From positions 1-55,603 of IMG/VR virus record IMGVR_UViG_3300008110_000187: a DNA stretch of 55,603 nt; one strand, 5' to 3'. The position numbers and the translations under genes were made by a program. This DNA is from a virus. The notes below the pieces were generated by a model. The model saw nothing but the letters and a program-made list of their open reading frames with translations, was not told the DNA's origin and made no database searches. Of this stretch, positions 3,001 to 20,327 are shown in pieces (the first letter of the stretch is position 1; each line of letters opens with the position of its first letter).

Positions 3001-4929
3001 ATTGCAACTTATATCTCTGAAAACCAAATGTCTGTAGATACTTGGAATGCTTTGAGCGAGGAAGAGAAAGAAAATTTAATGTCTCCCATAGATGCAATCT
3101 TAGGAAAGAACTTCTATGATGAAGGTATGATTAGATTCTTCTTTACTTCTACTAAGGTTGACCCTCTTAAGCCTAATAAGTTATATCCAGTAGGTTCTGG
3201 ATTGTTTACAAATAGTGAGCCTATTATTACTGCCGTAGACGAAGAAGAAAATCTAATAACCTTAGACGGGATTCCTATGGAGTTAAATATGCCTACGGTT
3301 TCTAAGGATGATTATCCTATTAGTGACAATGTTATTAAAGAATATTCTAAGTTAGGAGGATCAGAACAGGATCTTAGAAATAAAAATGCAGATACGTTTG
3401 AACGCTTAAAGGCTTTAAAGAAATCTATAGCTGCTGCAAACTCTTTTAATGACTCTTTACCTTATATGGACTTTGACTTCAATGTTTCATCTGGAGTAAT
3501 GCTTCCTACACCTATTAACACTTTTGAGAAAGGAAATACCACAGAAGTAGAGAGTGTAAAGAAAGCTAGAATTAGTGACTTCAAGATTATAGAAGATCCT
3601 AGAGAGTCTGTCTTTGGTAAAAGTTTTGCTTTTGAAAAAGGTCGTGTATACTTTAATAACAACGGTAATCCTACTTTATTAACTAACAACAAGATTGACC
3701 CAGCAGAAGCAGATGCATTAGCAGAAGTATACTTCTCTGAAGAGAATCCTTACTTTGCTAGTCCTAAAGAAGCAGAAGCTTATTTGTTTAACTTGATTAA
3801 CCAAGTAGACAAGAAAACTCGCTTACATTTCTTTGTAAACGAAGAGTATCCAGGAACAGGTCAGTTTCCTGTAATTATTGTTAAGTCCGTACAAACAGGT
3901 ACAGGATTTCAAAATACTGTTTTAACTAAGGAAGAGTTTGCAAGTACTCTTAAGAATCATTATTACAAAGCAAGTCTTGCTTTAATGAAGAGTGGAGAAC
4001 CTATCCTAAGATTTAAACCTGAAGGAGCAGTAACTCAAAACTATGCAGAGTATTTAAAAGACACTCATAACTTTCCTATTAAAGACGGAGAGGTTGCTAA
4101 GCCTGTAAACAAGATAGTATATCTATCTACTGAGTCTTTAGCAGCACAGTTTCCAGAAATAACGGGAATTGTACCTAAGGTAGAAACTCCTAAGCAAGTA
4201 CCAACTACTCCAGTTGCTCCTGCTCAACCTACTCAAGCTACTCAACCTGTTTCAGTTGCTGATACTACTTTACCTGCATTACAGACTTTATCTATTCTTG
4301 TATTCCCTAGAGCTTTGGATGCTATAAGTAAGAGTGCTGTAGCAGACGCTCCTCAACTATCAGCAGTTAAGACTGTAGGAGAGGAATTCTATCAGATGGC
4401 AATTAATACAGTTCTTGCAGATCCTAGCAAACTTTCTACTGTATACTATCCTAAATTAATAAAGAATAATACTGGAGGTACTGGAGCTAGTGTGTATTTT
4501 GAACTGACTCCGTATGATCCAACAGATCCAGGTGCTTTGGGTTCTCCTTTTTACATTGCTAGGGTACAAATAGCAGAAAGAGAAAAACCTGTAACTCTTG
4601 TTTTGGTAAAACCTAAGTCTCCTTTTGGAGGTAAATTTGGTACTCCTAGATTCCTCGCAGAAATAGACTTAGCAAATCCTTCTGAAGGTAAGATGTCTTC
4701 TACTATACCAAGTGCACCTGTAGCTCCTATAGTTCCTGTTGCTCCTGTAGAACCTCCAGCCACTAAGAAAGCTAGACCTGTTCTTACAGCAAACACATTT
4801 GAAGAACCTCAAGCAGAGGTAACAAGTGAGTCTCCTTTCTTAGATTCTTTACAAGATGAAGAAGAACTTAGAGCAGCAGCTAAAGAAGTCAAAGACGCTT
4901 GTAAAGGTGACTTAGACGATATTGCTTAA
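1..4929 (+). CDS. Giant virion cargo/ejection-type protein (5' end outside window)
   Basis: The frame is open from base 1, 24 codons before the first in-window ATG at 73, so the gene starts left of the window and at least 1642 residues are present. An early stretch (about nt 230-360) is rich in Gly/Ala and hydrophobic residues and could insert in membranes. A second Gly/Ala patch lies near nt 840-900. From about nt 1100 to 2250 the protein is highly charged and helical, probably coiled coil. Proline/threonine linkers (about nt 2600-2700, 4170-4260 and 4690-4770) separate globular blocks, typical of large modular virion proteins. No enzymatic motif is recognised. It is the first of three consecutive giant genes, and in crAss-like phages such proteins fill the tail barrel and capsid and are ejected into the host. 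That role is inferred from context only; it could instead be a tape-measure-like protein. Confidence 0.7.
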   Translation, partial: SARRSTIKAFGDTLPGQLIADVFNMGDFQKAVFSEAFYKPEVITYDAENKPVMSNQFMYTKTDGSKGFNFGAIPEAGGAMVAQMMPIIAVGGLVGGAVKGLAGAELGWASTAAAGVARGYDAINKLSAFGKELQLADRAATFASVAANTIPHFVEQEKRWGGNYVKRGFAGGIVEASAEAIGFPDVGALKMRPMTTTLASSAMRSAGLELNFGQRLGAYLNNSYEFAKMATKQNAVEALEEELSLIGNSIVQNTLMPEEYALRDREEVTAKTLTDTLVESFAAGLIYSFGTTGAGAYSYTRPENLKNMANWEAANNADLFVAKLSDLKDKGKITDQDFVQGMAKVRNLQGTLKSMVGFDSIRDLKTLNVDKDEQYNLFTNLLRKNELLTIDYDSLSEDEKNTLAKYKIANKISQKEAGKIEEIKKQLAEISTKENPTPAEIEKSVELTLLYQRIKRANIQSVKKGEISEEDKKFFYEKGLLQDADLQFTREDIDKEIASIDKSILKTQKRIDRYANLTDSEKRDVIRQVYDEKIDAVMNIDGTAELVSSMSALKKDLDYLKLKGEEEVPGQIEHKERLLDAYGKQMYDLTNERDEFGQNKIEQKVSTFDAVALEQEGDFYSMLEAQEYLSANKDHVNQELYDTVQENLNDSFERAQAALAEATPEVRSKILTDFLDKVTLKNTKYAYNVNLVNSLFPNAEYTQEELDNSREELIQRRAQRRSAQVLGTETLSEDEEEQKDQKEFNEVATQAAQTPEVVDESGNSNRDEIYLDGYNRMLEKAKNSPMGFAKAFESAIKGRLTKVFTRGTKDYNTLINAFDNLLDKKITPEEFRNIFLSVWRDNKADEKKANAVIFLKFIADRYFANDMPADRVASTTPAAKTTPVTPATTTTPPPKTVAKNAPTPKQGGKVDRLNEVVTQEVKARMTQLEYLASPLRSIAFEYNRQNEKNQDPAVLRNIALLEKLSSIPGSRIRVMNRKLFLTYHIMQRNAEVDPTEEFEKIATYISENQMSVDTWNALSEEEKENLMSPIDAILGKNFYDEGMIRFFFTSTKVDPLKPNKLYPVGSGLFTNSEPIITAVDEEENLITLDGIPMELNMPTVSKDDYPISDNVIKEYSKLGGSEQDLRNKNADTFERLKALKKSIAAANSFNDSLPYMDFDFNVSSGVMLPTPINTFEKGNTTEVESVKKARISDFKIIEDPRESVFGKSFAFEKGRVYFNNNGNPTLLTNNKIDPAEADALAEVYFSEENPYFASPKEAEAYLFNLINQVDKKTRLHFFVNEEYPGTGQFPVIIVKSVQTGTGFQNTVLTKEEFASTLKNHYYKASLALMKSGEPILRFKPEGAVTQNYAEYLKDTHNFPIKDGEVAKPVNKIVYLSTESLAAQFPEITGIVPKVETPKQVPTTPVAPAQPTQATQPVSVADTTLPALQTLSILVFPRALDAISKSAVADAPQLSAVKTVGEEFYQMAINTVLADPSKLSTVYYPKLIKNNTGGTGASVYFELTPYDPTDPGALGSPFYIARVQIAEREKPVTLVLVKPKSPFGGKFGTPRFLAEIDLANPSEGKMSSTIPSAPVAPIVPVAPVEPPATKKARPVLTANTFEEPQAEVTSESPFLDSLQDEEELRAAAKEVKDACKGDLDDIA

Positions 4930-4967
4930 CTATCATAGATAATTAAAGCAAAACTAGATTAACAACT

Positions 4968-4975
4968 TATATTTG
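4968..4975 (+). promoter_or_regulatory. Bacteroidota -7 promoter box TATATTTG
   Basis: TATATTTG matches the TAnnTTTG -7 element used by the primary sigma factor of Bacteroidota. It lies 22 nt before the ATG of the 3124-aa gene and after the stop of the previous gene. No TTG is found at the -33 position, so the match is to the -7 box only. Confidence 0.6.
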
Positions 4976-4997
4976 TAATAATAGCAACTAAAATAAA

Positions 4998-7900
4998 ATG
5001 ATTTGTCCTAACTTAAGTGATAGTAAGATACGTGCTGAGTTTACTCACCTTAGTAACCTAGTAGGAGAAGACTTTGCTTATTTCGTATGGAATAGGAATG
5101 GTGGATACCCTCTAGATAAAACTGTGATAAAGATAAAAGGAAAAGAAACAGTAGTTGACAATCCTTTATATGCTCACTTTTTAGACTCTTACAAAAATGT
5201 AAAGCAAGCTACTTTAGCTACTTCTATTTTTTACAGTAAGAAGTTACATAAGAATAATCCTAACTTCAAAGATCTTCCAGTCCAAGAGCAGGCAAACATT
5301 ATACACAACTTTGTACAGGAGAATGAAACTCTAGAGAAAGCTTCTGAAAGAGTAATGAAGTTTATTGCTCAGGGTTTTAAGGCAGAAAGAATCATAAGCG
5401 AAAATCTACAAAAGGTTGCTTTTGATGAAGCACGTAAGATTGCTAACGGTAGACAGTTGTTAGATTCTTATATGTGGTTTAAGAGTTCTCCTTTATCTCA
5501 GCACTTAGACTTTGTGAACATGCAGAACAAAGAAGAAAGTTCTTTTGCTACATGGACTAAGTCTGCAATTACTTTATACAAAGGATCTGATTACTCTGAT
5601 CTATACCACGAGGGATGGCATGAATTCACACAACGATTCATGACCAAAGAACAAAGGACTGCTTTATACCAAACAGTTAAGTCTAGACCTTCTACCGCTA
5701 CTATTAATGGAGTTCAAGTACCTTACTATGCTTTGACTAATCGTCAGATAGAAGAAGTACTTGCAGAAGAGTTTAGAAGCTTTGCTTTAAATAAGTCTAA
5801 CCCTGAGGTTATCCCTCCAGTAGTAGAGACTCCTGTAAGAAATGTTTTCCAAAGAATTTGGGACTTCCTTACAAGTTTGTTTATAGTAAGCCCACAAGAA
5901 GTTGCTCAGCAAGATCAAGACGCATTAGTAGAGGGTGTTGTAGGTTTATTTGAGAAACTATATGCTAACCAACTATCTGAGTATAGACCTAATGCAAGTA
6001 ACATCTCTGAGAAAGTATTAAATAGAAATAAAGAATTCCAAATTAACTACAAAGCAAAGGACGGAAGAATAATTCCTTTTGGTTACAATGCTTTAGAGGC
6101 TGCTGAAATCTTTAGTGCTATTGACTACTTCTTAGCAGACGCAATGGATAACTTTACAGATGCAGAAGGTAATCCAACTAAGTTAGAGATGTCTTTCTTA
6201 ATGGATCCTAAACTTAAGTCTGTATATCTACCTAAGTTGTATGAGAGTGCTAGGGATTCTATGTTGCAGTATATCAATGCTTTACAAGGTGAAGTACCTA
6301 CTGCTGATGAAGCTACTGCTGCTGTTTTAAACTCTAGAATCAAAAACTTAAAAGGACTTGTAGTACGTACTGCAGAAAATGATGGTTGGGCAGAGGTAGT
6401 TAAGAATCACCAAAAGAACTCTAAGGGTGGAGTATTCTACTCAGGTAATAACTTAAACACTGCTGACGTAGATAATCGCTTGGATGAAACTAACGAAGAA
6501 AACTTTACTAGGGATAGTAGAAGTTTTGCAAATGCAGAGGATGTAGATCCTATGAGCTTAGCTTCTCCTGAAATTCTACAACTTATTAAAACTCTTCCTG
6601 GAATCTATTATAACAACAAAGGAGAACTTATTACAGCTACAGGTAACTCTTTTGGTTTACCACAAGCAGGAGACTTCCTTAGAAATAAAAACTTAGTTTT
6701 AAATAAGGTAAGTGGAGCCATTAATTATGAGGAAGCTATTCAGAGACTTAGAAACTCTTTAGATATTGCTCCACAATTGCAGAACTTAATCAACAGGTTA
6801 CCTAATACCTCTGACACACTTTCGTTGGCTCAGATGGCTTTAAAAGCACAATTTATGCAGTTTGCAGCTATGCCTACTGTGGCTCCATACGAAGTTAAGT
6901 CTAGGATTAAGTCTACAGCTGCTAAAGTGTCTAAGGATAAGGACAGTGTAATGGAGCACGTAACTTTCTTGAACAATACAATGTCTCAAGAAAAACTTAT
7001 TGAACACTTTGATCAGAACTTTGTAACTAATAGACTTCGTAAGTATAGAATAACTGATCCTACAGAAAGTACATTAGCTGTATTTGACTCTGCTGGAATA
7101 CTTAGCGACTATGCTGCATACAAAGAAGTAGGTTTTACTTCTGATAAAGCAGTGTTTGAATTCTTAAACGATGCTTTTGGTATCGACTTAGTTAATAATA
7201 AAAACCCTAACTTACTCTTTAATAAAAAAGGAGAAGTACAGCTTAGTGTAAATCCTATCTTTACTCCTACCAACATAAGAAACATTAATAAGATTGCAAA
7301 CAATGCTTTGTTTAAGTTAAATCTTATTTCTATGCTTCCATCAGAAGTAACTGTTCCTACTGTTGGGTCTAATCCTTTGTTAACTTTATCTTCAGACATA
7401 TCTAAGCAACTTAAAGCTCAGATAGATGCACTGCCTAATAATCCAAAAAACAAAGAAATCAAAGAGTACTTAGCTAAACACTTTAGGGCTGCAACATTAG
7501 ATAACGAAAGAACTTCTGCTTTCTCTACTTTTGAAAAGATTTACAATATCTCTAACTCTGCTTCTTATATTAGTCCTGAGGGTAATTTAGAATATGCAAT
7601 TAGAGAATGGAATCACTTACTAGATACAGTTTCTAAGATCAACAGTGTACAGACTAAGTTTGATCTTACAGGACATTTGAATCCTGAAACAAATAATTTT
7701 ATTGAACATAGTATCATCATGAAACGGATGTTTCGTGCTGATAATGGTGAAAGGAGACTTACTAATTCAGGAGAGGACGTTGAACTAAGAGTTACTAATA
7801 TGTCTGGTTACACTATAGGAACTACTATGGGAGACAAGACAACTAACCTTACTGGAGATGGAAAACTACTACAAGACTTTATTGCTTTCAAGAAAGATGC

Positions 7901-10900
7901 TGTAGTAGAGAATATGAGGGTAGGAGCTAAGAGTAGTTCTTTTGCTACATTCCTAAATGGTAACAAGTTAGACAGAGAGTACTTTCCTTTAGAAGAATAT
8001 AACTTTAAAAACAAAGCAGTATTGTCTTCTTCTTTCATAGCTCAGATGCAACAGTATTTGTACTTTGAAGCTATGCGTATGTTTGATGATAAGGCCAAGT
8101 CTAACAAGAAAGAAATCTTAGGATCTGATTTTATTATATTCAAAGACATGATTCCTGACTCTATTCAAAGTAGAGTTAAGGAAGCTGTGGCTAATGCTGA
8201 AAGTAAAGCAGCTCTTAAAGGTGCTTTAATGGGAATGTTTGGCATGTCTAGTAACTCTCTTTACGGAGAATTCAAGAATGCTTTAACAGATTACTTTGCA
8301 AACTCTGTACAAACTCTTAGAACTTCTTTTAAAGAAATCCTAAGTAAAGGAGAAAACAAAGACCTAGCTCAACAATTTAATCGACTTTATCCAAAGAATG
8401 ATAGAACCTCATACTCAGACGAGGAGATTGATTCTAATCTTATGCACTTTACAACTAACTATTATGTGCATCAGGTAGAACTACTCCACTTAACTGTAGG
8501 AGATCCTTCTAACTTCCAAATTAAAAACTCAGATTGGAGAGGATTGTTTAAACGCTTAGGTGCTACTATCTCTCCAGGAAAACAACCTAGACTTGATTCT
8601 CAAGATATTAACTCTTGGAACAGTAGTTCTAATGGTAGCCTCTCTAGAGGACTTGAAGAAATTCAAAGAGGTACAGGAAAGTCCAGACAATACGATAGTA
8701 ACCTTAACTACGTACAATACGAAGATGTAAAGACTTTTGATTACTTAGATGAAAGTACAAAAGAAAGCATCAGAGAGAGTATGAGAGAGAACTACTTGAG
8801 TGCATTAGCTACTGTTAAGGGTGCTCTTACTCCTGAGGACATAAGCAGAGAGACTGCTAAGATTGATAAAAACCTTGATGCTGTATTCGAACAAGGAAAA
8901 GAATCAGATGCTCAGGCTTATGCAGGTTTAGATTTTATTCGTTTCTACCTTAATTCTATCGGAGAATGGCCTGATGACCTAGAACAAGCATATAAGCATG
9001 AGCTAGAAGTATTTAAAGCCATTAAAAAATATAGACAGTCAAACTCAGACCAAGACAAAGCTGAAGTCTATTCCTTGATTGCAAAAAGTAATTTAGGTAT
9101 CTTGACATCTTTAAAGCTTGGATACTATGGTTCTCCTACAGACTTTACTAAATACAACGTACTAGGTAAGTACTCTGTGTTTCCATTAAGTCCTTCTATG
9201 GTTTTTGACACAGACTTAGAAGATGTTATGATGGACTACTTAGACAAGGGTGTAGACTTAGCGACTTTCTCCAGTGGTAACAAGATGGCTCTTCCTACAA
9301 AAGAACTTCCTTACTATGAAAAGAAATCAGTAAAGGGTAAATCGGAGTATGTAGAAGGAGACAATGGGCAGTTAAAGATTGGTAAAGTAGATCCTGAAGC
9401 CGTAATTAGACTTCCTATTGACGGTCTTCGTAGACAACAGTATATTGCTCCTAAAACAAAGAATGAAGCTACCTTATCTACACAGATGGTTAAACTTATC
9501 TTTACTAACTTCTATGTTGGAGGAGATATTAATCCTGCTTATGCTCACCTAGAAGAAAAAATTAACAATCTTCAAGAAGCATTTATTGATAATATTAAAG
9601 TTATCGTAGATGTAGAGAAAGCAAAAATCTACTCTAAGATTGGTGCTACAGTAGGTGCTGATGGTAACATAACAAGTATCAGTACTGCAGACTTTACTAG
9701 CTGGTTGCATAGTGAGTTTGATAAGAAAGACGTACCTACTTCTGTATATTCTTTCTTGAGACCTACTGTTAATAATTCTTTTGTATTCTCTGTAGATGCA
9801 GGAGTACAACGTTCTTTGATAGATCAGATTATTTCTTCTGCATTGTCTAAGCGTGTATTGAGACCTAAGTTATTTGGTGAAGCTTACATACAGTTAGCTT
9901 CTACTGGTTTTAACAAATTAGGTACTCGTATGAAGAAGCCTACTACTTCTCAATTAAAATCTATAGCTAAAGGCTTCAATGTAAGCGGCCTAAGAGACTA
10001 TCGTATTGAGAATGGAGTAGTACAGCCTGCAGATGTTTTGATTCCGTTTAATCCAAAGAAACACACCCCCTTATTAAACTTAGAGTGGAATGGTGCACCT
10101 ATACAAACACTAGATAGATTAAACCAAGCCTTAGAGGATGATGCTTGGGTAGCAGAACACTCTGCTAAGATCAGCATAGTAGGGGTACGTATTCCTGTTC
10201 AGGGATTAAACTCTATGGAACACTTTAGAGTACGTAGGTTCTTATCTAATGTAGGAGGTCCTGTAATGGTTGTTCCTCCTTCTATTGTAACTAAGTCTGG
10301 ATCGGATTTTGACATAGATAAATTGTTTATGTATGAGCCAGAGTTAGACGATAACGGAAACTTAGTATCTAATTCTAGACTAAGTGATCCTGAGTTTAGA
10401 GCACAAGTCATAGATAATATCTTAGCAAAGAATGAATTTTTAGCTCTTAAAGCAGATAGTTTACAAACTTTGTTTGCTTCTGCCGACTTTAAAGAAGCTG
10501 GCTTAGTATCTAAAGAGATTGAAACTCTTAAGAAGTTTATAGACGATTTAAAAGAAGCTAAGAATTCTGGAGATGAAAATGCAATTGTAGAATTTAAAGA
10601 AAACATTGGTCCGTTAAACATGAAGTTAGGTATTGCTATTGAGAGATTTAAAACTCTTCGTAGTCAAGACCCTAAAGTGGTAGAGATGTTACAGAATTTA
10701 GTTAGTGCTAATGAAACTCTTGCTGATATGAAAGACATTTCAGAAAAAGCTCTTAAGGGTTCTGCTTCTAATAATATGATCTCTGTAATAGCTTCTGTGT
10801 TGTCTGAGCCAAGTATCTTTACAGAATTTACCAAGCCTAACACTAACGTTATTCTTCCTGCTATTGCAGAAGAATATCAAAAACTAAAAGGTAAAGAGAG

Positions 10901-13900
10901 TCGTATTTCTTCTAGTGCTATGTTCTTGATTGAAACTTCTGTTAGAATCTTTACAGAGAATAACTTAGGTAAGAAGTCTTTGGGTGTAGATGCTAAGACT
11001 AACGCTTTGCATAAACTATTCCAACAGACTGGACTTAGATTTAAGAGTAATCCAGAAGAAGTAGACATAAATAAGTTCTACCTACTTAAGGCAAACAAGA
11101 ATAGAAATACCAAAGAGATTGAGTTAGGAGGCTTGTATGATGCTGATGGAGTAAATCTTATATCTGATGTAATCAACGAGTTTATTAACGGTCACGTAGA
11201 TATTGAAAACGAAGACTGGATTAACTTCTTTAACGCAGATAGAGAAAGAACCCCTTTAATTCTTCAGATGGTTCTTAATGGTACTCCTGTAGATGAAGCT
11301 ATCTTATTGGTTAACCAACCTATCATCCAACATTATATTAGATCTAGTAAGATTACTAAAGTAGGTAAAGCATTAGGACAGAAACCTGCTGACTTGTTTA
11401 AAGACTACATTATTCCTGCACTAAACTTTTTAGGAGAAAAACCAGTCTTTGTAGAAGGTCAGATAGACGAAGCCCTTACTATAGAAAAAGTTCTTAGCAC
11501 ACCTAGTATTACAAGTGCTTTATCTGCAGAAAACTTTAACAAAGAAAACTATCCTCCTAACCCTAATGTAATTAGAAGTTCTTACGAGAAGATCAAAGCT
11601 AATAGAAACAGTAAGGAAGGAAACGAAGCACTAAGAGCACAGTTAGCATTCATAACTCAGTATTACGTTGTTAAGCAGCAGAACCAAATTTTATTATCTT
11701 TGACTAGTAACATAGATTTCAATACAGCTAACTATCGTATTAATACAGAGTTCTATGCTACTTCTATGGGTATTAATGATGCAAGAGAAAACTTTAACAG
11801 TGAGGCAATTGATAAAATTCTTACAAATAGTGTTGTTTCTCCGTTTAACGTCCTTGAAGCCAATCAATCTGTAGTAGACCAAGTATGGGATTTCTTCTCT
11901 CTTCCGTTAGTTAAGGATTATTTATATAAAGCTAAACAAGAGTATGGTAAGTATTGGAGTAGAGATAAGACGGTTAGGAACTTTAACCAACTTATGAACT
12001 CTATGATGTTGTCATTCTTTCAGAACATTCCAGAACTTAAGCCCTTATATGTTAAGTATGGTGCTGAATCAGGTCTACTAGATACTAAGTCTAAGAATAA
12101 CTTACGTGCTAGGTTTGACAGAATATTTAACAATACAGAGGATTCAAAGATAAAAGCCTTTGCCTCTAACAACATTATCTTAAATAACTTTACTTCTATC
12201 ATGGTAGAAGGAACTAGCATGTTCTATCCTGGTATGCTGACCAACGAGAAGGATGTAGACACAGTAAACGCAGGACAAAAAGACTTCTCTGATGGACTTA
12301 ATCATCCTAATCCAGAAGTAAGAGGATTCTTTAGTGATCTAGCTAATGCTGTTTTATTAGGACAAGGATCTAACATTAAGTATCGTTCTATCCATAATTT
12401 TATTCCTATGGAAGCTCAGACTGAAAGTATGATTGAATTGTCTATTGTTCTTAAAAAGATTAAGGAGTCTATAGATAATCCAGAGACTGCAGAATTCTTA
12501 GAAGATCTTTTAAATAAGACTACAAAGACTCACGCATCTATCTACTGGCCAAGTAAACAAAACAAAGTAGTAGTTACTAATAAGATGAAAACTTTTCCTG
12601 ACTTTAGACAAGTAATAGAAGAGAAGCCTCAGATTACTAGTAATGATGACTTAGATGAAGCTATGATCTATGCACAAGAATCTTCTAGCGATGCTCCTGA
12701 AATTGACTTCAATAGTATGGATGAAGAGTTTATCATAGCTAGGAAGATTGAGGAAAAGAAAGCAAAGTCTACTAGTATAATTAATATCTATGCTGGTACA
12801 GGAGAGAATGCTGAGTTAAGCAACTTTGCTAATAGACCTTTTGAAATTAATGGATATAAATTTAATTCTGTAGAACAAGCATTTCAAGAAGCTAAATATG
12901 AATTTACTAAAAGAACTGCTGAAGATAGTCAGATAAGAGATAATATTCAGAATACATCTTCTTCTGCAGCAATTAAAAAGTTAGGAAGTAAATATCCTAC
13001 TTTAGATACAAAAGTTTGGGATTCAAGAAGTTCTGAAATCATGAAAAGAGTTATCAAACTTTCTTTTGAACAAAATCCTGATGCTCTAGCAAAACTTCTT
13101 GCTACAGGTAATGCTAAACTTACACATACTCAAGATAAAGGTAAGTGGGGTAAAGAATTCCCTAGATTGTTAATGGAAGTGAGAAATGAACTAAGAACTA
13201 CTCAACCATCTACTATTGTTAAAATAGATTTCCAGGAAGAACCTACATCAGGATATAAAAATAGAACTATTAAGAATGCAAGTGCTGATGCTACAATAGC
13301 AATAGCCGTTGACTTTAATACAGCTGGAGAGAAACTAACCAAGTCATCTGTAGAAAGCCAGGGTAAGAAATACATAGCCAGAAACCTTGACGAGATGTTT
13401 GCTCCTGTAGATCCGTTTAACGCAAGTAAAGGATATGAGCTCAATGACAAGGCAATATTTAATATGGCAGAAAGTATTGTAGCTGATTTGAACAACGCAA
13501 ATGCCAGGACGCTTAACATAGCCGGTAATGGTATCTACACAATGAAAGGAAAATATCCTCAAGCTTTGTTAGATGGTGCCATGGAACGTTTGCTGGAATA
13601 TGTCACTCTATCTGATAACTTGAAAAACAAGATTGTTTCAGTTAGAAGTGGTGGGCAAACTGGGATAGATGAAGCAGGAGCTAAAGCAGGTATCAAACTG
13701 GGTATTCCTACTACTGTTCTTGCTCCTAAAGGATGGAAATTTAGAAATGAATCTGGTACAGATATATCTAATGAACAAGCATTTAAAGCTAGATTTGTTT
13801 CTACTCAACCATCTACTACTGCTAAAGTAATTCCTTTAAAAGAATCACAAAGATTTACTAGAGAGTCTGTAGAAAAAGATTCTGAATATATGTACTTGTT

Positions 13901-14372
13901 TACTGACAATGCAAAACGTACTTCTGGAAGTCAATTAGTAGCTGATGAATCTAGATATAGTGCAGTTTATGGTGGAGGTAAAAAATATCCCACCAGTACT
14001 CAAGCTGTAATTAGAGGTTTAGACAATGCATTTCCTATCACTACTATGGTAGACGATAAACGTACTCAGTGGACTGACGATAGATTTGAAGAATTTAAAC
14101 AGGAAATTGACTCTGAGATTGAAATCATTAAGAGTAATATGTCAAACTTTAAAGGTATTAAGTTTAGTGCAGAGATGCCTTTTGGTAAGGGAGCAATTTC
14201 TAACATGAAGAATACTGCTCCCAACAGTTGGAATTATCTTAATACAAAACTTGCCGAACTAGGTATTGATAATACAGGTAGTATACCTAAAACTATGCAA
14301 CCAATAATTCCTTCAGATATGAGTAACTTAGAGGATACAGATTTTGAAGTGACTAAGTGCAGGGAAGATTAA
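4998..14372 (+). CDS. Giant virion protein with RNA-polymerase-like DPBB motif, HExxH motif, NADAR and SLOG-like domains
   Basis: 3124 aa. HEGWH at residues 204-208, with acidic ELxEE-like residues near 253-258, resembles a gluzincin zinc-protease site. At about 1735-1780, RIPVQG followed some 30 residues later by GSDFDIDKL (Asp 1770, 1772, 1774) has the layout of the beta-prime double-psi beta barrel, RxPT...NADFDGD, which chelates catalytic Mg in RNA polymerases. The Gly is replaced by Ile but all three Asp are kept. A lysine-rich block near 1480-1500 could belong to the other barrel (weak). The C-terminus is a string of accessory domains: NADAR (about 2595-2732; LSNF, SVEQAFQEAK), a SLOG/molybdenum-carrier-like fold (about 2770-2930; SGGQTGIDEAG) and a third module (about 2948-3100; LFTDN, AVIRGLDNA). 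Similar giant RNA polymerases of crAss-like phages are packaged in the virion. The RNAP assignment is inference from one motif plus context; the NADAR call is firm. Confidence 0.75.
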   Translation: MICPNLSDSKIRAEFTHLSNLVGEDFAYFVWNRNGGYPLDKTVIKIKGKETVVDNPLYAHFLDSYKNVKQATLATSIFYSKKLHKNNPNFKDLPVQEQANIIHNFVQENETLEKASERVMKFIAQGFKAERIISENLQKVAFDEARKIANGRQLLDSYMWFKSSPLSQHLDFVNMQNKEESSFATWTKSAITLYKGSDYSDLYHEGWHEFTQRFMTKEQRTALYQTVKSRPSTATINGVQVPYYALTNRQIEEVLAEEFRSFALNKSNPEVIPPVVETPVRNVFQRIWDFLTSLFIVSPQEVAQQDQDALVEGVVGLFEKLYANQLSEYRPNASNISEKVLNRNKEFQINYKAKDGRIIPFGYNALEAAEIFSAIDYFLADAMDNFTDAEGNPTKLEMSFLMDPKLKSVYLPKLYESARDSMLQYINALQGEVPTADEATAAVLNSRIKNLKGLVVRTAENDGWAEVVKNHQKNSKGGVFYSGNNLNTADVDNRLDETNEENFTRDSRSFANAEDVDPMSLASPEILQLIKTLPGIYYNNKGELITATGNSFGLPQAGDFLRNKNLVLNKVSGAINYEEAIQRLRNSLDIAPQLQNLINRLPNTSDTLSLAQMALKAQFMQFAAMPTVAPYEVKSRIKSTAAKVSKDKDSVMEHVTFLNNTMSQEKLIEHFDQNFVTNRLRKYRITDPTESTLAVFDSAGILSDYAAYKEVGFTSDKAVFEFLNDAFGIDLVNNKNPNLLFNKKGEVQLSVNPIFTPTNIRNINKIANNALFKLNLISMLPSEVTVPTVGSNPLLTLSSDISKQLKAQIDALPNNPKNKEIKEYLAKHFRAATLDNERTSAFSTFEKIYNISNSASYISPEGNLEYAIREWNHLLDTVSKINSVQTKFDLTGHLNPETNNFIEHSIIMKRMFRADNGERRLTNSGEDVELRVTNMSGYTIGTTMGDKTTNLTGDGKLLQDFIAFKKDAVVENMRVGAKSSSFATFLNGNKLDREYFPLEEYNFKNKAVLSSSFIAQMQQYLYFEAMRMFDDKAKSNKKEILGSDFIIFKDMIPDSIQSRVKEAVANAESKAALKGALMGMFGMSSNSLYGEFKNALTDYFANSVQTLRTSFKEILSKGENKDLAQQFNRLYPKNDRTSYSDEEIDSNLMHFTTNYYVHQVELLHLTVGDPSNFQIKNSDWRGLFKRLGATISPGKQPRLDSQDINSWNSSSNGSLSRGLEEIQRGTGKSRQYDSNLNYVQYEDVKTFDYLDESTKESIRESMRENYLSALATVKGALTPEDISRETAKIDKNLDAVFEQGKESDAQAYAGLDFIRFYLNSIGEWPDDLEQAYKHELEVFKAIKKYRQSNSDQDKAEVYSLIAKSNLGILTSLKLGYYGSPTDFTKYNVLGKYSVFPLSPSMVFDTDLEDVMMDYLDKGVDLATFSSGNKMALPTKELPYYEKKSVKGKSEYVEGDNGQLKIGKVDPEAVIRLPIDGLRRQQYIAPKTKNEATLSTQMVKLIFTNFYVGGDINPAYAHLEEKINNLQEAFIDNIKVIVDVEKAKIYSKIGATVGADGNITSISTADFTSWLHSEFDKKDVPTSVYSFLRPTVNNSFVFSVDAGVQRSLIDQIISSALSKRVLRPKLFGEAYIQLASTGFNKLGTRMKKPTTSQLKSIAKGFNVSGLRDYRIENGVVQPADVLIPFNPKKHTPLLNLEWNGAPIQTLDRLNQALEDDAWVAEHSAKISIVGVRIPVQGLNSMEHFRVRRFLSNVGGPVMVVPPSIVTKSGSDFDIDKLFMYEPELDDNGNLVSNSRLSDPEFRAQVIDNILAKNEFLALKADSLQTLFASADFKEAGLVSKEIETLKKFIDDLKEAKNSGDENAIVEFKENIGPLNMKLGIAIERFKTLRSQDPKVVEMLQNLVSANETLADMKDISEKALKGSASNNMISVIASVLSEPSIFTEFTKPNTNVILPAIAEEYQKLKGKESRISSSAMFLIETSVRIFTENNLGKKSLGVDAKTNALHKLFQQTGLRFKSNPEEVDINKFYLLKANKNRNTKEIELGGLYDADGVNLISDVINEFINGHVDIENEDWINFFNADRERTPLILQMVLNGTPVDEAILLVNQPIIQHYIRSSKITKVGKALGQKPADLFKDYIIPALNFLGEKPVFVEGQIDEALTIEKVLSTPSITSALSAENFNKENYPPNPNVIRSSYEKIKANRNSKEGNEALRAQLAFITQYYVVKQQNQILLSLTSNIDFNTANYRINTEFYATSMGINDARENFNSEAIDKILTNSVVSPFNVLEANQSVVDQVWDFFSLPLVKDYLYKAKQEYGKYWSRDKTVRNFNQLMNSMMLSFFQNIPELKPLYVKYGAESGLLDTKSKNNLRARFDRIFNNTEDSKIKAFASNNIILNNFTSIMVEGTSMFYPGMLTNEKDVDTVNAGQKDFSDGLNHPNPEVRGFFSDLANAVLLGQGSNIKYRSIHNFIPMEAQTESMIELSIVLKKIKESIDNPETAEFLEDLLNKTTKTHASIYWPSKQNKVVVTNKMKTFPDFRQVIEEKPQITSNDDLDEAMIYAQESSSDAPEIDFNSMDEEFIIARKIEEKKAKSTSIINIYAGTGENAELSNFANRPFEINGYKFNSVEQAFQEAKYEFTKRTAEDSQIRDNIQNTSSSAAIKKLGSKYPTLDTKVWDSRSSEIMKRVIKLSFEQNPDALAKLLATGNAKLTHTQDKGKWGKEFPRLLMEVRNELRTTQPSTIVKIDFQEEPTSGYKNRTIKNASADATIAIAVDFNTAGEKLTKSSVESQGKKYIARNLDEMFAPVDPFNASKGYELNDKAIFNMAESIVADLNNANARTLNIAGNGIYTMKGKYPQALLDGAMERLLEYVTLSDNLKNKIVSVRSGGQTGIDEAGAKAGIKLGIPTTVLAPKGWKFRNESGTDISNEQAFKARFVSTQPSTTAKVIPLKESQRFTRESVEKDSEYMYLFTDNAKRTSGSQLVADESRYSAVYGGGKKYPTSTQAVIRGLDNAFPITTMVDDKRTQWTDDRFEEFKQEIDSEIEIIKSNMSNFKGIKFSAEMPFGKGAISNMKNTAPNSWNYLNTKLAELGIDNTGSIPKTMQPIIPSDMSNLEDTDFEVTKCRED
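13198..13818 (+). repeat. 18-nt direct repeat pair flanking an in-frame domain cassette
   Basis: CTACTCAACCATCTACTA occurs at 13198-13215 and again, identically, at 13801-13818. The start-to-start distance is 603 nt, exactly 201 codons, and both copies are read in the same frame to give the linker TQPST. The interval encloses the SLOG-like domain, with the NADAR domain on its left and the third module on its right. Confidence 0.9.
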
Positions 14373-14381
14373 TAAACAAAC

Positions 14382-14389
14382 TATATTTG
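14382..14389 (+). promoter_or_regulatory. Bacteroidota -7 promoter box TATATTTG
   Basis: TATATTTG lies in the 57-nt gap between two giant genes, 40 nt before the ATG at 14430 and 9 nt after the upstream stop. No TTG is present 19 nt upstream. The AT-rich leader (AAACAATTTAAATTTAAAT) has no Shine-Dalgarno sequence, as is usual for Bacteroidota. Confidence 0.55.
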
Positions 14390-14429
14390 TAAGTAAACAA
14401 GTAAACAATTTAAATTTAAATAAAACAAG

Positions 14430-17400
14430 ATGTCTAAAGGCTGTGTTATAAAATATACTAATCCTGTAACAGGGATGAATCAAACTTCTGTACTTGCTTA
14501 TACTCTATCCCAAGTAGGCTATAGTAACGAGCAAGCCATAGACTTAGTTAAGCAAGGAAGTCTATATTCTAAAAAAGATGGATACAATACCTGGCCTAAA
14601 CCTTTAAACAAGGATAAGGGTAGGTTTGGAAATTTTGTAGAAATAGACTCAGACAACTTACTTAGAAACGTAGGTATTGATTCGTTAACCTCCGATCAAG
14701 TTAAGTATCTTAGAGCAGCTCAGGATTTATTTGAAGATGTTCAAGTAAGAATAGATAATCCTATTAATCTTACTACTTTAGTAGAGATAGGCAACTATGT
14801 TAAAAACAATGGACTTGCCTCTGTAGGTATAGAGATTGTTAATCCAGAAGCACCAGTATTAGAAAGGATGTACAAAGTATATCCTATACCTTTTACTGAA
14901 CTAAACATGGTATATCTTTCTAGTTTTATTGAAGGAGAAGTATTTAATAAACGTCTAGTAAATGGAGAAGAGTCACGTATAGAGTTCTTAAAGAAGTACG
15001 TAGACTTTCAAAATCCTGATGTCTATGATACTTTAGTTAAGATTCTAAACGATCCAGAGACTCCTGACTACGAGAAGTTTGTGATTAAAAAACTTTTACC
15101 TATTATAGACTTGATCCCTACAATCGGTTTAGACTTTTTTACAGGTAAAGACTTACAAAACAGAGATGTAATTCCTATGGGAGAGTATGTTCCTGAACTA
15201 CATAAAATTAAACTAAATGTATTTGGATTAAAGAATAGAGGACTAGATTATTCTAGACGTGTTATTCTCCACGAGATTCTACACTCTGTTCTATCATCTA
15301 CGTTACAAAATCCTACAAGCGAGATAGACAAAGAACTTGTAAATAGTCTTAAGCCTATCCTTGCCTACTATCAACAGAAATATTCTACAAAAAAAAGAAC
15401 AGACACTTACTATGGTTTTAAAGACATACATGAGTTTGTATCAGAGTTTTTTACTAATCCTGATTTCCGCAACACTCTAGAGTCGGAAGAACCAAACTGG
15501 TTTATTAAAATTATAGATGCTATCTTTAAGTTCTTTGGTAAGAAGTTAAATCTAAATCAAAATCCTAATAGTCTAGAGAATATAGATCTATTGATGGAAA
15601 ACTTCTTCAATGAGATACTCCTTGCTCAAGATATTAATACTAGTATTATATATACTAAGTTTGATTCTATACCCTATACTATGAGTGTGCCTCAAATGCT
15701 TGAGATGGATAGATTTGTAGAAGAGAATTCAGACTTCCTTACTCGTTTAGATGAACTATTACAGGACGAAAATCTAATCAACTGGAGTAAGGTAAGAGAT
15801 CAAGCAGAGATTCTAGGAGTAAACGTAGGCAGTGTATTAAGAACTAAGGACATGTTCGTAGAGATTTCTGCAGCTGAGGCTAAAGAGTCTTTTAAATCTT
15901 TAGTAAGTTTCTTCCATGATAGCTCTAAGTACTTGGCAAGTGTTCGTACTTCTCTTAACAAGATGTCTTCTGATCCTACAATAACCAAAGATCAACTGTT
16001 TAGACAAGCTTACCATGCTAAAGAGTTAGGAGAGCAGTATACAAACCTAGCACAAAATTATCGTAGAGTTATGGGAGACCTAGGAGCAAACACTATTTTG
16101 GGTCAACAGTTGTTAAACTTAGAAGCTACTGCAGATTCTTTGTCTAAGGCTTATTTTAACAACGCTGTAGAGGCTTTAGCTATTAAGTTGGCAGATGAGT
16201 TCGCACCACAGACAAAAGACGCTCAGAAGCGAATCCAAGACAATATAGATAGGTTTAAAGTTTCATTAGCAAGTGCACAAAAACTAGGGAACACTAGACT
16301 TATAAAACTTACAGAAGATCGTATTAGGAATGAAGAAGCAAGAATGTCTACCCTAGCTACTAAGACTAACTTACTAAAAGCACTTAGAGGTCAGATAAAA
16401 GACGTAGGAAACTTCTCTCTTTTCTTAGAGTCAGCAGGATTATCAGGAAACATTCTTACAGGTACTGTAGGAGGTATGATTTCTAACCAGTTTGATACGG
16501 CTAACGTAAAGGCTCAAGCAATGGAAGTTAAATTAAAGAAGATTGCAGATGAGTTACAAAACCACCTAAAGAGTAAAGGGGTGGGAGTGAATACTGCATT
16601 TGACTTTGAAAATGTATTTGGACGTTTCATTAAGAAAGTAGAGATTGTAGAAAACAAGAATGGAAAAATCTCTAAGAGAGAAACACTAGTTCTGTTGAGT
16701 GAGATGGATGAAGTTCGTTACAACAATCTTATAACTAAACTTAAAGCAGAGTTAAGAGAATTAAAACAAACTAAAGTACAAGACTCTACAGTAAAAGATT
16801 TAATCAGAGCTAAAGAAGAAGAGATTCGTAGAACTAGATCTGAGTTTGAAGTACAGCCTTTTGAAGATATCTACTATCAGATTCAGAATATGCTTAGTGC
16901 AGAAGCTAAAGAAGCTAGAGACTTAATCTTTGAAGAGATGAATAAGATCCAAGTAGGAAGTCTTACAGAAGAAAACTCAGAAGAACAGTTAGATAAATTA
17001 GATGACTTAAAAGAAGAACTAGACTTACTAGAATCTGATTACGATAAAAACAAAAACTTAAAAGACGAAGCAGGACTTAGAATTGCTGCTAACATTAGAG
17101 AATGGAAGAAGAGTAGAGCTGCTGCAGAACTTTATACTTACACTATCAGTAAAGAAAACCAAGCACTTTTTGACTCTCAACTAAATTCTAAAAAAACAGC
17201 TTACGATAAAGCAGCTGCTGACTATCAACAAGCAGTAGACGACAATGCTGATGCTGATACCTTAGACTACAAGAAACAAACAGTAGATTACTATAAGAAA
17301 CAGTTTGAGTTGTGGAAAGCAAACAACTGCGTAAGAAAAATTGATCCTGAGTTCTATAAACAAAGAAAAAAAATAGTAGATGCAGTTGCTGCTATTCAGT

Positions 17401-20216
17401 CTAGGTATCCTGTTCCTTCAGGTGTTCGTAAAATGGATGAAGTATGGAATGATATATTCGGGGTATTGAAGGGATATAAGAACACAGATAACTTCTACGA
17501 AGGTTCTAAGATCGCTTCTCCTAATCCAGATGGAACTCCTTCTAATCTCTCTACTCTTGTTAGAGCATTAGAAGAAGAAATAGAAGCAATTAAAACTGCT
17601 TACAAGACTGATGTAGATATGTCTAAAGAAGATTCTGACAATCTCAAGGATCTGTTTTCTTCTTTTGGAGACATCCAAGAAAAGGTCTACACTCCTGATT
17701 ATGTAAGGGAATACACTAGTAAGTTAAATCTAATTAAAACTTCTTTAATTGCTCAAAACAATGTAAAGTACCAAGACCAAACTGATGACTCTCTATTAGA
17801 GTTAGATGCAACTAAAGAACTTAGAAAGACTGATTGGTACAAACAAAACCACAAGAAAGTAAACGTATGGGATGAGAACAATCAAGTATGGACTTTATCT
17901 GATGAACCCTTATACTTCTGGATGTCTACCGAACCTACAGACAAAACTTTGATTAGCGACACTTCCCCTTCTTTTAGATGGAATACTATTGCAGTGAACC
18001 CTAGATACATTAAACCAGAAGTAAAGAATGTAAAATACAGTAAGCGTGTTCCTTTACGTACAGACAGAACTGAATATAGAAACAAAGAGTACGATAAATT
18101 AGATGCTAAGGAAAAAGAAATTCTTCAGAAGATTACAGATCTTTATTTAGATCTTCAGAAAGGAACACCTATGAATCTTAAGAAAGGATTAGAGTTGCCT
18201 AGTGTTATGATGGACCCTGTAGAAAGGTCTCTGAAAGATACTAATATGGGTACACTTAAATCCAAAATAGGATCTACTTTTCAAGGTATTTGGGATAGAG
18301 CTACTTTTGAAGATGACGAAGAAACAGCAAGGACTGAAGAAGGGGGATCTGTTATACAAAAGGTAAGTAAGAAACTTTATTTAAAATATAATAGACCTAT
18401 TCCTGCAGATAAAATGAGTCTAAACATTCTTAACAGTATTGGAATGTATGGTGCAGACTTAATCAGATTTAAAGAAGCTTATGAAGTAATGCCTTACATC
18501 TACGGTATGCAGGACGTATTACAAGAATCTTTGCCTGGTACTAAGATTGAGAAGATGATTAATAACTTGTTTGAACGTAAGTTACAAGGTAAGAGTCGTA
18601 AGTTCTTAGTAAACAACAAAGCTGGTAGGATGGTAGAAAAAGTACTTGATATGTCTTTATCTGTCAACTCCCCTATTGTACTTGCTTATCGTCTTCCTTC
18701 TAGTGTAAAAAACTTTATGGCAGGATCTGCTAACATCTTTATACAAGCTGGTATTTATGGTTTAAGTCGTAAGGAAATTTTTAAGGCTATGGGTAGGAAT
18801 GCTGTACACATAGCAGACTTGTTTCAGTCAGAAGTAGAAGATGGTAGGGATTCTGAATACATTGCTCGTATGAGATACTTTAATGTTATGCCAGAAGATC
18901 AATTAAGTGAAACAGGACGTAAGTTATTTATTTCTAAGTTAGGCAAGTATCGTAAGTACAATCCATTTAACTTTCTAGGATTCTTTAGAACCTTTGGTGA
19001 ATTTGAAATGAGAAGTGCAGTTGCAGAGGCTATGTCTCAGCAGTTCTTAGTTCCTTTGGTAGATAAACCTGAAGGAGTTCCTTTGTTTGAAGCATATGAC
19101 TTCAAAGATGGAGTTCTTGTTCCTAAAGATACAATTGTAGACTTAGAAGGATTTTCAAAAATAGAACAATACTACAGAGGTAAACTTAACCACGTTAACG
19201 CTGCTATACAAGGTGCTTATGGATCTATGGATAAGGGAGAGTACAGCAGATACACTCTTGGTAGAATTATAGGAAACATGAAAGGATGGGTTGCTTACCA
19301 AGGTATGAGGAGATTTAAAGTAGGTAGAACTATCAATCCTAGATCAGGAGAAGAGTTTCAAGGTTTTTACGTAACAGTAATCCAAGCGCTTAAACTACTT
19401 TATCAAACAAACTTCTCATTACCTGCAACTAGAAATCTTATGACTCCTGCAGAACGCAGAGAAGCAGAAGGTGCAGCTATAGATATGCTTGCATTAGCTT
19501 TAATTATGGGATTGTCTGCTTTGCTTAACAGTTTAAGATATGATGATGAGGATGATGAAGATATGTATGTAGTGTATTTCTTGCTTTATAACTTGTTACT
19601 GATTGAAGACGAGTTAAACAGTTTAAACCCTGTATTCAGTCCTTTGTCTATTTACCATTCTAGATTTGAAAACAACGTAGACGGACAAAACTTTGCTCAG
19701 TACTATTTGAATAGAAACGTATTACTTCCATTTGCAGGTGCTACAGATGCTATAAAACTAACTGTAGAAATGCTTAATCCTTTTGATGATGCAAGTCCTT
19801 TTGATGAGTATGTTCCTAGAAGTAGAAGTGGTAAGATCTCTAACCCTAAAAGATACCCCCCAGATCCTACTCTTAAAGGAGATATGGAAGTGTCTGCTCG
19901 TATTCAGAAACTATTTGGATTAAACGCTTCTATAAACTACTTCTTAAATCCTGAGTACTTATTTAGAAAGTACGAGAAGTATAACCCTAAGTGGTACGTA
20001 AGTAGCTTAGAATCAGACTTAAGAGGAGAAAAACGTTCTGTAAACTCTATAGATAAACAAATCAAGTCTATTGAAAGACAAATAGACTACGTAGATGACT
20101 TAGATACTAAGGAAAGTTTATTGAATAAGATAGAGTCTCTACAGATTGAAAGGTCAGAATCAAGAGATAGGACATCTTCTCTAACAGAAATATACTCAGA
20201 GACTGGGAGGAAATAA
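14430..20216 (+). CDS. Giant virion cargo protein with HExxH metalloprotease-like motif
   Basis: 1928 aa. An N-terminal zinc-metallopeptidase signature, VILHEILHS, gives HEILH at residues 281-285. It is followed 50 residues on by a helix HEFVSEFF (334-341) that could supply the third ligand. The centre (about residues 480-1050) is long, charged and helical, with coiled-coil character. The C-terminal third contains hydrophobic segments (about 1420-1445 and 1688-1735, the latter including LALALIMGLSALLNSL), which suggest membrane interaction or pore formation after ejection. It is the last of three giant genes in the late unit and is followed by a hairpin that includes its stop codon. A role as an ejected cargo protein is inferred from position and size; no homology search was done. 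Confidence 0.7.
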   Translation: MSKGCVIKYTNPVTGMNQTSVLAYTLSQVGYSNEQAIDLVKQGSLYSKKDGYNTWPKPLNKDKGRFGNFVEIDSDNLLRNVGIDSLTSDQVKYLRAAQDLFEDVQVRIDNPINLTTLVEIGNYVKNNGLASVGIEIVNPEAPVLERMYKVYPIPFTELNMVYLSSFIEGEVFNKRLVNGEESRIEFLKKYVDFQNPDVYDTLVKILNDPETPDYEKFVIKKLLPIIDLIPTIGLDFFTGKDLQNRDVIPMGEYVPELHKIKLNVFGLKNRGLDYSRRVILHEILHSVLSSTLQNPTSEIDKELVNSLKPILAYYQQKYSTKKRTDTYYGFKDIHEFVSEFFTNPDFRNTLESEEPNWFIKIIDAIFKFFGKKLNLNQNPNSLENIDLLMENFFNEILLAQDINTSIIYTKFDSIPYTMSVPQMLEMDRFVEENSDFLTRLDELLQDENLINWSKVRDQAEILGVNVGSVLRTKDMFVEISAAEAKESFKSLVSFFHDSSKYLASVRTSLNKMSSDPTITKDQLFRQAYHAKELGEQYTNLAQNYRRVMGDLGANTILGQQLLNLEATADSLSKAYFNNAVEALAIKLADEFAPQTKDAQKRIQDNIDRFKVSLASAQKLGNTRLIKLTEDRIRNEEARMSTLATKTNLLKALRGQIKDVGNFSLFLESAGLSGNILTGTVGGMISNQFDTANVKAQAMEVKLKKIADELQNHLKSKGVGVNTAFDFENVFGRFIKKVEIVENKNGKISKRETLVLLSEMDEVRYNNLITKLKAELRELKQTKVQDSTVKDLIRAKEEEIRRTRSEFEVQPFEDIYYQIQNMLSAEAKEARDLIFEEMNKIQVGSLTEENSEEQLDKLDDLKEELDLLESDYDKNKNLKDEAGLRIAANIREWKKSRAAAELYTYTISKENQALFDSQLNSKKTAYDKAAADYQQAVDDNADADTLDYKKQTVDYYKKQFELWKANNCVRKIDPEFYKQRKKIVDAVAAIQSRYPVPSGVRKMDEVWNDIFGVLKGYKNTDNFYEGSKIASPNPDGTPSNLSTLVRALEEEIEAIKTAYKTDVDMSKEDSDNLKDLFSSFGDIQEKVYTPDYVREYTSKLNLIKTSLIAQNNVKYQDQTDDSLLELDATKELRKTDWYKQNHKKVNVWDENNQVWTLSDEPLYFWMSTEPTDKTLISDTSPSFRWNTIAVNPRYIKPEVKNVKYSKRVPLRTDRTEYRNKEYDKLDAKEKEILQKITDLYLDLQKGTPMNLKKGLELPSVMMDPVERSLKDTNMGTLKSKIGSTFQGIWDRATFEDDEETARTEEGGSVIQKVSKKLYLKYNRPIPADKMSLNILNSIGMYGADLIRFKEAYEVMPYIYGMQDVLQESLPGTKIEKMINNLFERKLQGKSRKFLVNNKAGRMVEKVLDMSLSVNSPIVLAYRLPSSVKNFMAGSANIFIQAGIYGLSRKEIFKAMGRNAVHIADLFQSEVEDGRDSEYIARMRYFNVMPEDQLSETGRKLFISKLGKYRKYNPFNFLGFFRTFGEFEMRSAVAEAMSQQFLVPLVDKPEGVPLFEAYDFKDGVLVPKDTIVDLEGFSKIEQYYRGKLNHVNAAIQGAYGSMDKGEYSRYTLGRIIGNMKGWVAYQGMRRFKVGRTINPRSGEEFQGFYVTVIQALKLLYQTNFSLPATRNLMTPAERREAEGAAIDMLALALIMGLSALLNSLRYDDEDDEDMYVVYFLLYNLLLIEDELNSLNPVFSPLSIYHSRFENNVDGQNFAQYYLNRNVLLPFAGATDAIKLTVEMLNPFDDASPFDEYVPRSRSGKISNPKRYPPDPTLKGDMEVSARIQKLFGLNASINYFLNPEYLFRKYEKYNPKWYVSSLESDLRGEKRSVNSIDKQIKSIERQIDYVDDLDTKESLLNKIESLQIERSESRDRTSSLTEIYSETGRK

Positions 20217-20243
20217 TCCTCCTAGTTTCTTGACTTTATTTTT
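20199..20243 (+). terminator. Rho-independent-like terminator spanning the stop codon
   Basis: Arms GAGACTGGGAGGA (20199-20211) and TCCTCCTAGTTTC (20217-20229) form a 13-bp stem with two G.U pairs and a 5-nt loop. The loop AATAA contains the TAA stop of the giant gene. A T-rich stretch follows. The next promoter starts at the base after the stem. Confidence 0.7.
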
Positions 20244-20259
20244 AATTAATATACTTTTG
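20230..20259 (+). promoter_or_regulatory. Strong Bacteroidota promoter (TTG-N19-TACTTTTG)
   Basis: TTG at 20230-20232, exactly 19 nt, then TACTTTTG at 20252-20259. This is a full match to the Bacteroidota consensus TTG-N19-TAnnTTTG. It would start a late transcript for the appendage and lysis genes just after the terminator of the cargo genes. Confidence 0.8.
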
Positions 20260-20264
20260 TACTA

Positions 20265-20298: not shown

Positions 20299-20327
20299 GA
20301 TAATTTAATTTTTAAAACTACATAATT

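Follow-up and report, generated by a model that had tools for sequence, protein, structure and literature searches.

NADAR domains and crAss-like virion RNA polymerases

In NADAR domains, the third catalytic site is His in phage gp30.3 proteins, Asp in DarT1 antitoxins, and Glu in YbiA (PMC11543638, PMC11125620). NADARs, including the His-type T4 gp30.3, hydrolyze guanosine-ADP-ribose in vitro, and neither T4 gp30.3 nor YbiA rescues cells from DarT1 toxicity (PMC11125620). In the survey of Iyer et al., viral NADARs are typically stand-alone, crAss-like phages are unmentioned, and phage NADARs are argued to target mainly soluble ADP-ribose derivatives (PMC9503650). For the crAss-like phage crAss001, mass spectrometry of virions identified the RNA polymerase (RNAP)-associated proteins gp47, gp49, and gp50, and disulfides are used in the virion tail (PMC10172136). 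The annotation of phi14:2 gp65-gp67, which include the RNAP gp66, likewise derives from virion proteomics.

The window, that is, the whole 55.6-kb IMG/VR record that was analyzed, contains a NADAR domain inside an RNAP ORF that sits between two cargo giants; the genes, domains, motifs, and linkers described below are on its plus strand. In the ORF list, the upstream giant g1 (1618 amino acids) occupies 73..4929, the RNAP giant g2 (3124 amino acids), which bears the cassette array and was also identified by profile search, occupies 4998..14372, and the downstream giant g3 (1928 amino acids) occupies 14430..20216. The RNAP catalytic metal-binding motif DFDID, which aligns to 6VR4, lies at g2 residues 1770-1774 (10305..10319), and a HEGWH zincin-like motif is found in the N-terminal part of the protein (5607..5621). 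A profile of the DFDID region built from 18 sequences matched only one PDB entry in an hmmsearch, 6VR4, the phi14:2 virion RNAP (E = 1.6e-23). Judged by its sequence, g2 is a crAss-like virion RNAP with a DFDID core related to phi14:2 gp66, so that the label "RNA-polymerase-like," given to the 3124-residue protein in a sequence-only reading of this DNA, was right. The g3 product is a homolog of gp49-type proteins (the match is the one of PhiCrAssBcn2) in the same position as phi14:2 gp65; gene order together with the Cys pattern, rather than alignment, links g1 to phi14:2 gp67 and crAss001 gp47.

That reading had also proposed that the protein is ejected with the genome. The predicted delivery of g2 is well supported by homology to proteins found in crAss001 and phi14:2 virions, and the near absence of Cys from fused NADARs (see below) points the same way. 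The large multidomain make-up of g2 fits that of polyvalent proteins, with its virion location again suggested by homology.

The g2 protein contains a His-type NADAR domain

The NADAR cassette covers residues ~2590-2733 of g2 (12765..13196), as delimited by Pfam, alignment, model, and Foldseek. Pfam NADAR (PF08719) matched residues 2603-2719 (E = 1.1e-13, 52.2 bits, cut-off 35.1), and a separate genome search placed NADAR at the same site. By phmmer, the solved NADARs YbiA 2b3w (7e-11) and 8bau (3e-8) were matched, and these E values improved to 2e-16 and 4e-14 with a NADAR profile to which 20 relatives had been added. An AlphaFold2 model of the domain had a mean pLDDT of 93.3 and a pTM of 0.88; a Foldseek search with this model gave just two significant matches, YbiA (5e-7) and the ADP-ribose-containing NADAR 8bau (1.8e-7).

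Alignments identified E2626 (12873..12875) and K2633 (12894..12896) as the predicted catalytic Glu and Lys, the pair that is characteristic of the NADAR superfamily (E88/K95 in the Escherichia coli C7 NADAR), and H2710 (13125..13127), at the third catalytic site, as a residue of the phage type. When eight stand-alone phage NADARs are aligned with the domain, H2710 occupies the third-site column, which is His in Melville, RL38J1, and Lu11 and Glu in YbiA-type phage NADARs; the Asp that is the hallmark of DarT1-associated (BC4488) NADARs is absent from the window domain, which has His instead. The three residues are unchanged across 21 aligned sequences that diverge down to 38% identity, and the middle of the domain is hypervariable across relatives. 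Based on the profile matches, alignments, and model, g2 residues 2603-2719 are confirmed as a NADAR domain of the His (gp30.3-type) subtype. The sequence-only reading had placed the domain at residues ~2595-2732 (12780-13185), coordinates that proved good, and the profile search and structure prediction with active-site check that it had suggested both upheld its call.

SLOG, DUF7831, and linker repeats follow the NADAR domain

The domain order in g2 is polymerase core, NADAR, SLOG, DUF7831, and a short C-terminal tail; SLOG and DUF7831 are absent from the NADAR finding of the sequence-only reading. The SLOG domain (phrog_10774, residues 2742-2927, 13221..13778) was identified with PHROGs and Pfam; Pfam cpYpsA/SLOG covers residues 2882-2920 only, and the PHROGs match widens the domain to its full extent. 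Relative to Pfam cpYpsA, the halves of this SLOG (13221-13778) are in swapped order, with an N-terminal part that resembles the C-terminal half of 3imk (a weak match) and the GGQTG part coming after. Pfam placed the DUF7831 cassette at residues 2951-3082 (13848..14243), and a model of it reached a pLDDT of only 74 and had no significant PDB match. Comparison of relatives defined the conserved C-terminal tail PSDMSNLEDTDFEVTKCRED, which includes Cys3121 (14310..14369); this tail (FEVTKCRED) is kept regardless of the cassettes that precede it.

A repeat search found an exact 18-nt DNA repeat on both sides of the SLOG cassette, where copy 1 encodes the linker TTQPST (13197..13214) and copy 2 the linker STQPST (13800..13817), each at a cassette boundary. 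The window has four exact direct repeats of at least 16 nt within 700 nt, one of which is this linker, and none occurred in 30 first-order Markov simulations of the window, so chance was rejected as the origin of the linker repeat. The same linker DNA is present in three distant phages (L019, L082, and L122). Among 93 RNAPs, all 15 of 15 (S/T)TQ(P/S)ST motifs lie within the accessory C-terminal 15% of the protein (binomial p = 3e-13, a value that is indicative only because the sequences are related). In sequence, one relative (L045) looks like another (L047) with a DUF7831 cassette inserted at the linker and the linker duplicated. The simplest reading of these data is that cassettes move by recombination between linker repeats; cassette exchange could also be neutral recombination at the linkers.

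Near-identical phages differ in their cassettes

Viral-contig loci related to the window were compared with it at the segment between the RNAP core and the C-terminal tail. One relative (L009) has 97.7-98.6% nucleotide identity to the window from 2720 to 20368 (17.6 kb), and the sole large break is inside NADAR. In two others (L010 and L012), compared over 2762-20267, the only breaks are at NADAR, which is missing, and at DUF7831, which is replaced by an ART-PolyVal ORF; no NADAR match was found across the entire 118.9-kb record containing L010. The arrays can be described as NADAR(A)-SLOG-DUF7831 in the window, NADAR(B)-SLOG-DUF7831 in L009, SLOG followed by a separate ART-PolyVal ORF in L010-L012, SLOG alone with a split frame in L046, NADAR alone in the L048 group, DUF7831 plus a stretch of >1200 residues of unknown type in L045, and the unknown stretch alone in L047. 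This last cassette (L045:5937-9941, L047:6174-9949), which is at the same site, has no Pfam match. In L016 and L046, the RNAP frame is broken just ahead of the cassette region by a stop after IVLKTI, which is either real or a sequencing error.

The ART-PolyVal ORF (L010:10738-11730; PF18760, E = 1e-10; also in L012, L011, and L041) starts with MICPN and finishes with KCRED, both as in g2, and the shortened g2 beside it has a new terminal Cys (FNNC). In the Oafivirinae loci L003-L005 (cr131_1, cr130_1, and cr272_1), the giant ORFs are not open with genetic code table 11; with TAG translated as Gln, DUF7831 comes immediately after NADAR. In other loci, NADAR lies on the N-terminal side of the core (cr126_1, L018, L024, and L027) or comes after SLOG (L019).

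The middle of the L009 NADAR is ~85-92% identical in nucleotides to that of L025, a phage whose RNAP core aligns at only 37% amino acid identity; at the 3' end, the L009 NADAR matches the window with 98-100% identity. By sequence, the L009 NADAR is a chimera shared with a distant crAss-like phage. Across 17 phages, NADAR similarity and RNAP-core similarity are uncorrelated (Mantel r = 0.07, p = 0.24, with only ~110 RNAP residues used), and NADAR is more similar than the RNAP core in 134 of 136 phage pairs (~110 RNAP residues compared). Isolates and named phages differ in the same way. Kolpuevirus cr126_1 has a NADAR near RNAP residue 50, whereas its cultured relative frurule (83-92% identical by segment) has none, and the PhiCrAssBcn2 RNAP is crAss001 gp50 at 99.4% identity apart from a SLOG insertion. 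In a DNA-level search of named phages, the only match was a 155-nt SLOG stretch in cr10_1. By these sequence comparisons, near-identical phages have swapped, lost, or replaced NADAR as a cassette, a pattern that looks like an arms race with host defenses starting at the very outset of infection.

Fusion to NADAR is the exception. In a sample of 80 loci chosen for RNAP similarity, many of them partial, 3 have a fused NADAR, 16 SLOG, 4 DUF7831, and 3 an ART-like domain. When 68 RNAP tails, a sample chosen partly for NADAR, were scanned with Pfam, 7 tails had AlkB-like 2OG-FeII_Oxy_2 domains, and the scan also detected helicase and RNase H domains; the AlkB-like 2OG-Fe(II) oxygenases suggest that base-repair cassettes may also be borne on crAss-like RNAP tails. 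The crAss-type NADAR was found at 4 loci in bacterial genomes, every one of them metagenome-assembled. Bacterial-binned NADAR contigs (L135, which is WLWP01000004.1, and L136-L137) are labeled Pseudomonadales, Bacilli, and Zoogloea, and L135 is probably a misbinned crAss-like contig because it has a DFDID motif and a near-terminal Cys.

Cys residues are placed at the facing ends of the cargo giants

The 3124 residues of g2 include Cys at positions 3 and 3121 only. The sole Cys of g1 is residue 1610 of 1618, and g3 has Cys5 and Cys967, with none C-terminal; the terminal Cys codons of g1, g2 (both ends), and g3 are at 4900-4902, 5004-5006, 14358-14360, and 14442-14444. The Cys residues of phi14:2 are at 1797 (of 1797) in gp67, 3 and 2179 (of 2180) in gp66, and 3 in gp65, and those of crAss001 are at 2339 (of 2341) in gp47, 5, 1334, and 2404 in gp50, and 5 in gp49. 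The crAss001 gp47 gene is on the opposite strand to those of gp49 and gp50, yet its Cys pattern is the same.

This pattern was surveyed in loci L055-L134, phi14:2 (L141), and crAss001 (L008), taking the first ATG as the start. Cys was present at the g1 C terminus in 56/60, the g2 N terminus in 66/70, the g2 C terminus in 81/84, and the g3 N terminus in 77/78, counts that come from related sequences and so are not independent events. Both sides of facing ends had Cys in 143 of 149 cases in the sampled loci. ORFs interposed between g2 and g3 have Cys at their two ends (12/14 and 14/14), in contrast to the outer ends of the three-giant block (0/7 for the g1 N terminus and 0/48 for the g3 C terminus). 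The g2 ORFs without an N-terminal Cys are four very long ones (>4300 amino acids), apparently with fused upstream material, and the g2/g3 junction of L027 has no Cys on either side. Internal Cys makes up 0.006-0.034% of the giants, whereas other genes, in the window as in phi14:2, have ~1%. An unrelated injected giant, the N4 virion RNAP, has 0 Cys in 3500 residues, and gp51 and gp52 are also Cys-free. MICPN was considered as a general cargo tag and rejected; the strict pattern is found only in window-clade g2 and the L010 ART ORF, and since it is restricted to one clade, the N-terminal Cys was taken as the more general feature.

The NADAR domains differ accordingly, with 1 Cys in 3379 residues when fused to crAss RNAPs versus 22 in 1236 residues for the eight stand-alone phage NADARs (Fisher p = 4e-12 by residue, 2e-6 by sequence). 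The near Cys-free composition of the fused NADARs suggests that they share the constraints of ejected cargo, as would be expected for proteins threaded through a tail. As a working hypothesis, the terminal Cys residues may couple the giants. We tentatively propose, with somewhat more doubt than conviction, that the crAss-like cargo giants form a Cys-coupled train g1-g2-g3 in which the RNAP link is a platform for exchangeable counter-defense domains. In the virion, head-to-tail links, for example disulfides, would join the giants, which would be threaded through the tail in order and freed in the reducing cytoplasm, and phages would exchange counter-defense domains such as NADAR on the RNAP link.

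The NADAR cassette as a candidate counter-defense effector

The explanation that we favor, and consider reasonably probable, is that NADAR is an exchangeable C-terminal effector cassette of the virion RNAP that is ejected early and hydrolyzes ADP-ribose adducts against host defense. The capsid would contain the RNAP, and its ejection before or together with the DNA would put NADAR in the cytoplasm before any phage gene expression. There NADAR would hydrolyze N-glycosidic adducts of ADP-ribose, with guanine-ADP-ribose on phage DNA or transcripts as the most likely substrate and soluble ADP-ribose derivatives as a possible one, and thereby blunt an ADP-ribosylation-based defense. For the window NADAR, we infer ejection, activity, and defense target alike, and the reading we prefer is a hydrolase of guanine-ADP-ribose that is present from time zero. 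An anti-defense role had been suggested in the sequence-only reading, with DarT-type toxins as the opponent. The role itself fits the pattern of cassette exchange. DarT as the specific target is not supported, because the domain is of the His type, with His and not Asp at the third site, and cells poisoned by DarT1 are not rescued by T4 gp30.3 (PMC11125620).

Soluble ADP-ribose signals are a close rival to nucleic acid as the target because SLOG accompanies NADAR in the window. According to this alternative, which we regard as quite credible while stopping short of calling it probable, the NADAR-SLOG-DUF7831 array acts on signals that TIR, Thoeris-like, or RES effectors produce, such as cADPR variants or ADPr-1''-P, nucleic acid is not the target, and fusion to the RNAP serves for delivery only. 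In the window, SLOG comes immediately after NADAR, and in related RNAPs SLOG stands beside or without it; such co-occurrence, the soluble targets proposed for phage NADAR, Macro, SLOG, and Nudix domains (PMC9503650), and the lack of DarT1 rescue by T4 gp30.3 (PMC11125620) are all in its favor. However, the NADARs tested in the literature searched cleave guanine-ADP-ribose in DNA, no phage NADAR activity on cADPR is reported there, and the AlkB-like 2OG-Fe(II) domains on 7/68 RNAP tails point to nucleic-acid bases. These domains also bear on an alternative that we consider unlikely, in which NADAR works in cis with the polymerase as a form of transcription-coupled base repair. As the first transcription proceeds, NADAR would free the template or the nascent RNA of ADP-ribose, and on other crAss RNAPs the AlkB-like cassettes would do likewise for alkylation. 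The presence of AlkB-family, helicase, and RNase H domains on the same tails agrees with this alternative, as does the location of NADAR in the DFDID ORF, N- or C-terminal, in most NADAR loci (the exceptions are L003, L032, and the truncated L029). Nevertheless, delivery alone already explains the fusion, the DUF7831, ART, and SLOG cassettes have no obvious fit with repair, and the position of NADAR, N-terminal in cr126_1 and C-terminal in the window, implies no fixed geometry relative to the polymerase active site.

Two further explanations seem to us highly improbable. Relatives with ART-PolyVal cassettes at the same site raise the idea that NADAR strips off ADP-ribose put on by an ejected ART of the phage itself; this idea was set aside as the principal explanation since NADAR is missing from the relatives that carry the ART (L010/L012), and domain searches found no ART in the three window giants. 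The hypervariable middle and the presence/absence polymorphism would suit a noncatalytic relic or structural spacer, an idea that has very little to recommend it given that E, K, and H are unchanged in 21 sequences down to 38% identity.

If the favored reading of the NADAR cassette is true, crAss-like phages, the dominant phage order of the human gut, carry on their virion RNAP both a nucleic-acid de-ADP-ribosylase and an entire collection of exchangeable domains that handle ADP-ribose, and this RNAP reaches the cytoplasm in advance of all phage gene expression. Since natural cassette-plus and cassette-minus pairs exist, the role of ejected anti-defense domains is directly testable; an isolate pair is available for SLOG (crAss001 and PhiCrAssBcn2), and for NADAR the cultured frurule can be paired with the sequenced Kolpuevirus cr126_1. 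The terminal-Cys pattern makes a simple biochemical prediction on the storage and ejection of giant cargo proteins, a question that remained after the crAss001 virion structure.

Comparison with known systems

The window NADAR shares its fold, Glu/Lys pair, and third-site His with T4 gp30.3 and other phage His-type NADARs (PMC11543638, PMC11125620). Those proteins are stand-alone and contain Cys, whereas the window domain is nearly Cys-free, is fused to a virion RNAP, and has a shortened loop after WG. The fold and Glu/Lys pair are also common to DarG1, the BC4488-type NADAR antitoxin of DarTG1; in contrast, the window domain has His for Asp, no DarT was seen adjacent to it, and its neighbors are cargo giants. 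Among virion RNAPs, phi14:2 gp66 and crAss001 gp50 have the DFDID core, three-giant cargo block, and terminal Cys found in the window, but crAss001 gp50 lacks the SLOG of the PhiCrAssBcn2 RNAP, and the NADAR-SLOG-DUF7831 array is seen in neither of those two.

Polyvalent proteins and packaged NAD-ADPr effectors are also ejected and multidomain, and they include ART-PolyVal and ADP-ribose-handling domains; the known packaged effectors (Iyer, Burroughs, and Aravind; PMC9503650) are fused to MuF, portal, or head proteins. Automatic annotation already puts NADAR- and SLOG-like domains on crAss RNAPs, as "DUF1768" in Kolpuevirus cr126_1 and "DprA-like" in cr130_1, but in both the domain position differs from that in the window, and cassette behavior is not described in the literature found. 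Based on these comparisons, the NADAR subtype and the theme of packaged ADP-ribose effectors are already known, and what is new relative to the open-license literature is the crAss virion RNAP as carrier, cassette exchange with shared linker repeats, and the terminal-Cys pattern.
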